A DNA stretch of 34,103 nt, taken from Opitutales bacterium (GTDB lineage Bacteria > Verrucomicrobiota > Verrucomicrobiia > Opitutales > UBA953). Below are positions 8,470 to 19,350 of the stretch, piece after piece. The position numbers were made by a program, and so were the translations under genes. Position 1 is the first letter of the stretch, and each line of letters opens with the position of its first letter. The notes below the pieces were generated by a model that worked only from the letters and a program-made list of their open reading frames with translations, was not told where the DNA came from and did no database searches. The DNA is taken from assembly GCA_017935025.1 (NCBI GenBank), contig JAGBIL010000012.1, positions 1 to 34,103 of the forward strand. Direction: 5' to 3'.

Positions 8470-8518
8470 ATGGGAAAGGAGGAATGTTCTCGTTTTCAGA
8501 GTTATCCTTGAGAGATCT

Positions 8519-8548
8519 TAACGCAGAGAACGCAAAGACTCTAAAGGA
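8519..8548. repeat. Dispersed intergenic text of the CGCAGAG/CGCAAAG type
   Basis: ACGCAGAGAACGCAAAGAC lies just downstream of the acyltransferase gene, and a similar GAAGAACGCAGAG follows ligA at about 4888. Repeats of this wording are common in gaps of many bacterial genomes. Here it marks the right-hand side of a likely inserted block. Confidence 0.4.
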
Positions 8549-8573
8549 AAATATTTCGAGTCTTTACGAGAAT

Positions 8574-9572
8574 CTATCGGATGCCGATTAGTTTTGAGAG
8601 ACTTGTTCCGATAATTTTTTCTGCGCCCTTGCAGGCAAGAAACGTAATACCAACACATATACCGCCTTGCATGATTTTGACGAAGGGGAGAATTTCCGGA
8701 AAGAAAATCATGCGGGAACAAACAAAAGCTAACGGTGTCATCCAAAACATATGGAATGCGTATATTCCGAACGAATAGTCTCCGAGCTTAGAGAAAAATC
8801 TGTTGGGCGGCGGGTTCGTGCTTTTCAGACATAAAATCAGATTTATTATCGCGAGAGAAAAAAGTACGGAGCCGAAGCGAATTTGTGAAATCGCTAACGA
8901 AAAAATTTCCGTGCCGGTTTGTCCGTAGATTACAAATCCTTCCCAAATGGCGATGAAAAGAGCGGTGAATGCAAGCATAATTGCCGTCGGCAATCCGGTA
9001 AAACCGTTGTGCGAAATCTTCCCATTCGCGCACAATAAACCGAGATAGTAGAGCGTAAACCACGCAAAACACGGAAGATTATAGTGCGGCAACATTTTTC
9101 CCGCAGAAAAATCATACGCATATAGAGCGAGAATGTATAAAGGCGTAATGCCGAGAAGCCCCCATTTTAAACCGGAAACGAACTTCGATTCGGAGCGAAT
9201 GATTTTCACCAAAATCGGTGTAATTATTGTGAGTTGAAGCAAAACATGCAGAAAGTAGAGCGGACCGGCTGCCGTTCCTGCAAGAAAAGACTTGGGAATA
9301 CGAAGTAGGTCGAAAGGCTTTCCCGCAATTTTGCAAAGGATAAAACCGACGCAAAGGTAAAACGTCGTCCAAAAAATGTAGGGAACCAAAAGCCGTACGA
9401 CGCGGGAAACAAATTTCCCATTCGCTTCACCGAAATAATGATCGGTCGATTTGTTAAAAAATCCCGAAAGAAAGAAAAAAACAGCGACCGGAAAATTTAT
9501 AAAACCTCTGGTGAGGATGAGAAGATAGCTTTCTTCCGTGCCTGTCGGAGCTCCGACCGTATGAATCAGCAC
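8574..9572 (-). CDS. Acyltransferase-3 family membrane protein, probably phase-variable
   Basis: The product is an integral membrane O-acyltransferase of the kind that acetylates surface sugars such as O-antigen, capsule or exopolysaccharide; the substrate is not known. The open frame from GTG 9572 encodes 332 residues with about ten hydrophobic segments (for example FINFPVAVFFFLSGFF, LVPYIFWTTFYLCVGFIL, YSFGIYAFHMFWMTPLAFV). The family's R-X10-H motif reads RGICIIAVVLIH: the Arg codon is at 9594-9596 and the His codon at 9561-9563. The Arg and first helix thus lie upstream of GTG 9572, so that codon is unlikely to be the true start. The frame stays open upstream to a C tract (9645-9657 on this strand) and then meets a stop at 9660-9662. 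An ATG at 9691 joins it if the tract gains one base or loses two. No GGGAACG motif occurs from 8432 to 9831. Confidence 0.8.
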   Translation of the reverse strand: MLIHTVGAPTGTEESYLLILTRGFINFPVAVFFFLSGFFNKSTDHYFGEANGKFVSRVVRLLVPYIFWTTFYLCVGFILCKIAGKPFDLLRIPKSFLAGTAAGPLYFLHVLLQLTIITPILVKIIRSESKFVSGLKWGLLGITPLYILALYAYDFSAGKMLPHYNLPCFAWFTLYYLGLLCANGKISHNGFTGLPTAIMLAFTALFIAIWEGFVIYGQTGTEIFSLAISQIRFGSVLFSLAIINLILCLKSTNPPPNRFFSKLGDYSFGIYAFHMFWMTPLAFVCSRMIFFPEILPFVKIMQGGICVGITFLACKGAEKIIGTSLSKLIGIR

Positions 9573-9644
9573 GACCGCAATGATGCAAATACCTCGAATC
9601 TGTTGCAGAAATTCAGAGTGCTGATTTTGATGTTGTAAAACCTT

Positions 9645-9657
9645 GGGGGGGGGGGGG
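9645..9657 (-). repeat. Homopolymeric tract of 13 cytosines in the acyltransferase 5' coding region
   Basis: Thirteen Gs on the plus strand read as 13 Cs in the sense of the acyltransferase gene. Tracts of this kind change length by slipped-strand mispairing and switch surface-structure genes in Neisseria, Helicobacter, Campylobacter and Bacteroidota. With 13 Cs the ATG at 9691 is out of frame with the acyltransferase; with 14 or 11 it is in frame, and the tract encodes a short polyproline stretch. The exact count in an assembly is error-prone, and the population may be mixed. Confidence 0.85.
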
Positions 9658-9691
9658 TATTATGTCGGATTTCGTTTTTTGTATTATTCAT
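9658..9691 (-). other. Detached 5' coding segment of the acyltransferase gene
   Basis: ATG at 9689-9691 begins a frame MNNTKNEIRHNT leading straight into the C tract with no stop. In the present 13-C state translation continues out of frame and ends at a TGA near 9570. In a 14-C state it would read through into KVLQHQNQHSEFLQQIRGI and the complete acyltransferase of about 372 residues, a normal family length. No strong Shine-Dalgarno sequence is visible. Confidence 0.65.
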
Positions 9692-9733
9692 AGCGGATAT
9701 GAGACGTTGTTTGATGAAAAGCGTTTGTGTTTA

Positions 9734-9780
9734 CGACAAAAGCATTCGTGTTCATTAGTGTTAATTCGTGGTTTCTTCCT
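9734..9780. repeat. Dispersed intergenic repeat, CACGAAT/ATTCGTG type
   Basis: This stretch contains GCATTCGTGTTCATTAGTG and TTAATTCGTGG. In reverse complement it reads like the AACACGAATTC units at 25549-25578 and 25742-25771 and is related to the ATCCGTG text near 33284-33312. It lies between the phase-variable gene and the neighbouring minus-strand gene. Confidence 0.5.
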
Positions 9781-9783
9781 CTG

Positions 9784-12824: not shown

Positions 12825-12870
12825 AAATCCTTCTTTTTCTTCTGTTACTTTCCGGTAAAAAAAAAATCTT

Positions 12871-19320: not shown

Positions 19321-19350
19321 GCTAATGTTTTTTTTCTGATTTTTTTTTTT

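Follow-up and report, generated by a model that had tools for sequence, protein, structure and literature searches.

The minus strand of the window, by which we mean the whole 34,103-nucleotide stretch of the Opitutales bacterium assembly GCA_017935025.1 (contig JAGBIL010000012.1) analyzed here, carries an acyltransferase reading frame that runs back, at its 5′ end, into a homopolymer of 13 cytosines. The locus raises the question of where the protein begins, and whether the tract is a switch, an error of the assembly or the mark of a gene in decay.

Table 1. Features of the acyltransferase locus (window positions).
Feature	Position	Strand	Remark
Accessory insert holding the gene, ~1.3 kb	8485–9783	.	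bounds approximate; flanking genes adjacent in G005 and G003
Leader, 11 codons plus one base (MNNTKNEIRHN)	9658–9691	-	ATG 9691 up to the tract
C13 homopolymer	9645–9657	-	proposed slippage site
Acyltransferase-3 (AT3) frame 3′ of the tract, 357 codons plus stop	8574–9647	-	single-domain AT3 (PF01757)
GTG, only in-frame common start	9570–9572	-	protein would lack R18 and the N-terminal half of TM helix 1
R-X10-H motif (R18, H29), first hydrophobic helix	9561–9596	-	invariant between G000 and G003
RXXR motif (R82, R85) of AT3	9393–9404	-	invariant in the two homologues, G000 and G003

The reading frame and its tract

Read along the minus strand, ATG 9691 is followed by AATAATACAAAAAACGAAATCCGACATAATA, the 13 C (9657–9645) and AAGGTTTTACAA. 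As the initial annotation had stated, this ATG enters the C13 tract out of frame with the acyltransferase ORF; its own frame reads MNNTKNEIRHNTPPPPRFYNIKISTLNFCNRFEVFASLRSC and then meets a stop, giving a product of 41 aa, and the acyltransferase frame is bounded by a TAA directly 5′ of the tract. The same annotation had calculated that a tract of 14 or 11 Cs would yield one protein of about 372 residues, and the frame arithmetic agrees: the gain of one C, or the loss of two, puts ATG 9691 in frame with the ORF that ends at 8574. At this position, one base decides between the full-length and the shortened product. The C13 is the only C/G run of at least 6 in the window, with no runs of 6–12. 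In a MAG built from short reads, the assembled length of the C13 may be off by about one base, and “OFF” describes the consensus state only.

The frame 3′ of the tract matches the Pfam family Acyl_transf_3 (PF01757; 2.8e-27, 96.1 bits against a curated cut-off of 31). Both AT3 motifs are present, R-X10-H within TM helix 1 and RXXR close to TM helix 3; the former is described as absolutely conserved in AT3 enzymes, with its residues functionally identified by experiment, and the latter was described in the same work (PMC9833829). No SGNH domain was found in the window acyltransferase, the only NCBIfam match was a weak one to MdoC, far below the cut-off, and a phmmer search of the PDB sequences gave no match up to E 10. 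An AlphaFold model of the 357-residue frame, built on a two-sequence alignment only, reached a pLDDT of 39 and was discarded. Judged by its AT3 family, which suggests both the acyl group and the acceptor, the protein most likely transfers an acetyl (acyl) group through the inner membrane to a glycan of the cell surface or the periplasm.

Where translation starts

The acyltransferase frame contains no ATG, GTG or TTG upstream of GTG 9572, and a start at this codon would lose R18 of the R-X10-H motif while retaining H29. With the frame counted from 9647, the Pfam domain begins at residue 13, ~13 residues above the GTG (residue 26). It was therefore correct to place the 5′ part of the acyltransferase, with the R of R-X10-H, upstream of GTG 9572 and back to the C13. 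A homologue in the congeneric genome G003 (SUVQ01000009.1; MAG Verrucomicrobia bacterium SIG76), 67% identical to the window gene, allows this stretch to be compared codon by codon. Over the 15 codons that can be aligned between the start of the frame and the GTG, we counted 9 synonymous and 3 conservative nonsynonymous changes (pS 0.84, pN 0.09), and the peptide SEFLQQIRG is identical in the two proteins with five of its nine codons different. Such a pattern is that of purifying selection, and the stretch above the GTG is thus translated, if not always, in the acyltransferase frame. In G003, a valine codon stands in place of GTG 9572, one that is not GTG, and the first in-frame common start of that homologue is a TTG located elsewhere. 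On the extent of the domain, the constraint above the codon and its non-conservation in G003, we reject GTG 9572 as the start.

Relatives of the gene within the genus

The G003 homologue has an 11-codon leader (MNEVVANKTNC) followed by a C13 tract, again out of frame, and it lies at a different locus, where the gene upstream of it was named, by its sequence, as glutaminyl-tRNA-synthetase-like. Between the two copies, dN is 0.29 against a dS of ~2. Genome G006 holds two tandem, more distant AT3 genes, in which a 12-codon leader and a C9 tract precede the domain, also out of frame. In these three AT3 genes of the genus, the leader measures 33–37 nt. By these comparisons, the tract goes with the gene rather than with the locus. 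To restore the frame, the window gene and both G006 genes need one additional base, and the G003 gene one fewer. All four AT3 genes with a 5′ tract are out of frame in the assemblies, an outcome with a chance of ~0.2 and hence unremarkable, which would also fit decay or rescue by slippage. Elsewhere in AT3 genes of the genus, a mid-gene G13 splits the frames in G004 and a mid-gene G10 is in frame in G002. No C/G run of at least 8 is present at the 5′ end of the core AT3 genes of the genus (types HYELLDGLRG and WIDCARW); in one of them, from G002, a C/G10 lies close to the 3′ end. Relatives of the window gene were also sought among viral contigs, and none was found.

The gene has a GC content of 43%, compared with 53% for the window. 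The distance between its flanking genes is only 105 bp in G005 and 125 bp in G003, with no acyltransferase in between, and we therefore regard it as an accessory insert. At its edges, window positions 8520–8537 and 9744–9770, lie phrases (CTTTGCGTTCTCTGCGTT and CACGAATTAACACTAATGAACACGAAT) resembling the intergenic repeats of other bacteria. A search for a repeat-like motif (CACGAATTAACAC...) adjoining the gene gave nothing.

Long C/G tracts in the genome and the genus

The initial annotation had suggested looking, genome-wide, for other long homopolymers at the 5′ ends of surface genes, and long C/G tracts are indeed in excess. The 2.03-Mb genome contains 14 C/G runs of at least 10, where ~0.6 would be expected, and 3 of at least 13, where the expectation is 0.004. 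These expectations derive from 147 kb of the genome, in which the number of C/G runs changes by a factor of ~0.19 with each extra base; this sample is centred on tract regions, and runs of up to 8 were not selected for. Tracts of at least 10 occur in all eight genomes of the genus, as do tracts of at least 11, which average several per genome. In a sister genus of the same family, tracts of at least 11 were found in 10 of 37 genomes, mostly as single cases. MutS1 and MutL are encoded in all genomes of the genus, so that no general repair defect lies behind the tracts, and missing mismatch repair is ruled out as their cause.

A Pfam run on the reading frames touching tracts, across the genus, returned Methylase_S, MmeI, EcoRI_methylase, Hexapep, PglD_N, GNAT, Glycos_transf, DUF4422, Wzy, PS_pyruv_trans and Epimerase, in addition to AT3. 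The corresponding functions are type I specificity subunits, MmeI- and EcoRI-type methylases, acetyltransferases, glycosyltransferases, an O-antigen polymerase, a polysaccharide pyruvyl transferase and epimerases; surface-sugar and DNA-modification genes are thus among the carriers, and known contingency repertoires consist of the same main classes. Other tracts touch genes for Fic, PEP-CTERM proteins, octopine dehydrogenase or MlaE, or no recognisable gene, and some of the tracts in the genus are probably neutral.

Several tract genes outside the AT3 family are of interest in their own right. At L046 (G000, contig C35, 49108–50430), Methylase_S domains stand in a row in different frames, with C/G tracts of 12 and 11 between them, an arrangement that might act as a modular switch of DNA specificity; the sequence of the contig stops ~250 bases beyond. 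An MmeI-type restriction-modification enzyme (L037; G000, contig C14, 36022–39078) has an in-frame tract of 15 C just 5′ of its methyltransferase domain, and its relative in G002 (L082) has one of 10 C elsewhere, immediately 5′ of the C-terminal domain. In G005, a C/G tract lies at the 5′ end of the frame in both of two genes for EcoRI-type adenine methylases (L060 on contig C6 and L063 on contig C15).

In G016, G010, G041 and G006 there are dozens of long C runs, many of them clustered at contig ends, and these look like poly-G sequencing artefacts built into the assemblies. The raw tract counts of artefact-prone genomes (G006 and several of another genus) are untrustworthy; the tracts on which we rely lie within contigs, flanked on either side by coding sequence.

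Tract lengths also differ between species. G003 and G005 share a polysaccharide locus with 95–99% DNA identity and five gap positions over ~7.9 kb aligned. Orthologous tracts in these two genomes measure C10 and C11 in one case and C12 and C14 in another, within loci 97–99% identical; a third tract (C14) falls on a scaffold gap in G003. A tract in an acetyltransferase gene is C9 in G000 and C11 in G005, with flanks 92% identical. With one genome per species, the differences are between species rather than within a population. Assembly error may account for part of them, but they are what hypermutable tracts would predict. In an ATP-grasp gene (L056 on contig C14 of G003 and L059 on contig C4 of G005; DNA ~98% identical), the 12-C tract of G003 ends the frame, and the 14-C tract of G005 fuses it to a further 248 codons.

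Phase variation and its alternatives

Taken together, the shared layout of leader, poly-C and AT3, the genus-wide set of tracts and the length differences between species support a switch. The window gene is very probably a contingency (phase-variable) locus, in which slippage at the C13 would alternate an AT3 enzyme (ON) with a 41-residue peptide (OFF). Translation would start at ATG 9691, pass through the short leader, read the poly-C as prolines and continue into the AT3 domain if the frames match. Slipped-strand mispairing during replication would add or remove single Cs, so that daughter cells would alternate between the full AT3 enzyme and the dead peptide, and the population would be mixed in its surface acylation; the assembled C13 would be an OFF length. 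The tract, the frames, the domain, the selection above the GTG, the layout repeated in relatives, the tract set of the genus and the length differences at other tracts are observed; slippage in the window gene, mixed populations, the acetyl group and the glycan acceptor are inferred. Where the initial annotation saw an OFF state of a surface-modification switch, the switch gains comparative support, the OFF length stands for the consensus, and the words “surface modification” reflect the AT3 family only.

Other explanations account for parts of these data. Slippage on long homopolymers is known in bacteria, and transcriptional slippage or ribosomal frameshifting on the tract might supply some full-length enzyme at any tract length, leaving the gene always on at a low level, with little effect of the DNA length; that the four AT3 genes with a 5′ tract are out of frame and yet open, as selected coding sequence, fits this. 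However, the required shift is opposite in sign between the window and G006 genes on the one hand and G003 on the other, and tract lengths vary between species. As the sign differs between the window gene and G003, a directed ribosomal frameshift is unlikely. The explanation as a whole is improbable as a replacement for slippage of the DNA, with which it is also compatible, and transcriptional slippage could add a leaky product to the switch. A C13 is hard for short reads, and with poly-C artefacts present in some related MAGs, the tract length might simply be wrong in a gene that is normally in frame and constant. This is very unlikely: the long tract is real either way, being found at the same place in G003, internal to its contig and genus-wide in selected gene classes, and hypermutability would still be expected of a tract with one base more or less.

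The gene sits in an accessory insert of low GC that G005 and G003 lack at this locus, and it is now out of frame; this would also fit an acquired acyltransferase that an indel in the tract has inactivated and that is decaying. However, the frame is otherwise open over 357 codons, dN is low relative to dS, constraint is strong right up to the tract, and the homologue at another locus carries the same tract. Decay is very unlikely. Hardly credible, finally, is a shortened working enzyme translated from GTG 9572, with the tract untranslated or regulatory. Its appeal lies in the GTG being the only in-frame common start; against it, the enzyme would lose its essential Arg together with half of TM helix 1, the codons above are constrained at the protein level, and G003, without a GTG at the aligned position, has its first in-frame common start at the TTG elsewhere.

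Comparison with known systems and implications

The closest parallels to the proposed slippage switch come from the same phylum. In Akkermansia muciniphila, the exopolysaccharide gene Amuc_1413 (EPS, G9) gained a G that frameshifted it and abolished the binding of mucin; between genomes, this tract is variable (PMC13055324). The 2011 genome paper lists Amuc_2098 as an acyltransferase with a C10 repeat (PMC3048395). Like the window gene, these are surface-polysaccharide genes with a long G/C tract. They belong, however, to another lineage of the phylum, and Amuc_2098 is compared here by its description as an acyltransferase only; the window gene differs from both in being an accessory insert and in its longer tract, sited between a short leader and the domain. 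The lipooligosaccharide (LOS) O-acetyltransferase gene oafA of Haemophilus influenzae, which is phase-variable through an in-gene repeat (reviewed in PMC9558356), has in common with the window gene an AT3 enzyme and a repeat in the gene, but the repeat is a tetranucleotide rather than a homopolymer, and the acceptor is a known LOS heptose. The Campylobacter phasome (PMC8355987, PMC6321876) includes G/C homopolymers in surface-glycan and other genes that turn ON or OFF by frame; these poly-G/poly-C contingency genes show the same tract type and frame logic, in a different phylum, whereas the present genus has MutS1 and MutL. Salmonella oafB likewise confers phase-variable AT3 O-antigen acetylation, but through an epigenetic, DNA-methylation-dependent switch acting on an AT3–SGNH fusion (PMC9558356, PMC9833829). 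The titles and abstracts of the literature found held nothing pertinent to phase variation in rumen Verrucomicrobia.

Homopolymer switching as such is already known; what is less expected here is its scale in an uncultured genus and the repeated leader–tract–AT3 layout at different loci. Slippage switching of surface glycans and DNA methylation, best known from the pathogens Neisseria, Haemophilus and Campylobacter and lately from Akkermansia, would be extended to an uncultured genus of the Verrucomicrobiota, genus-wide. We tentatively suggest, as an idea with somewhat less than an even chance of being right, that the genus runs a Campylobacter-like phasome despite MutS/MutL, in which glycan enzymes, type I specificity subunits carrying poly-G between their recognition domains and MmeI/EcoRI-type methylases switch independently and the AT3 cassette is mobile. 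The AT3 gene would then move between loci as a ready-made switchable cassette of short ATG leader, poly-C and enzyme, and newly acquired surface modifications would arrive already switchable. Randomly switching surface acylation would matter for attack by phages and for interactions with the host or the diet. For genome annotation, it matters that gene calls in such MAGs miss or shorten switched genes, and the tract set of the genus makes the question testable with existing metagenome reads.

Two A/T tracts in the window could affect initiation: a T11 at 19340–19350, directly 5′ of ATG 19351, and an A10 at 12857–12866, just 5′ of ATG 12871 of a DsbD-like gene (named from its sequence).
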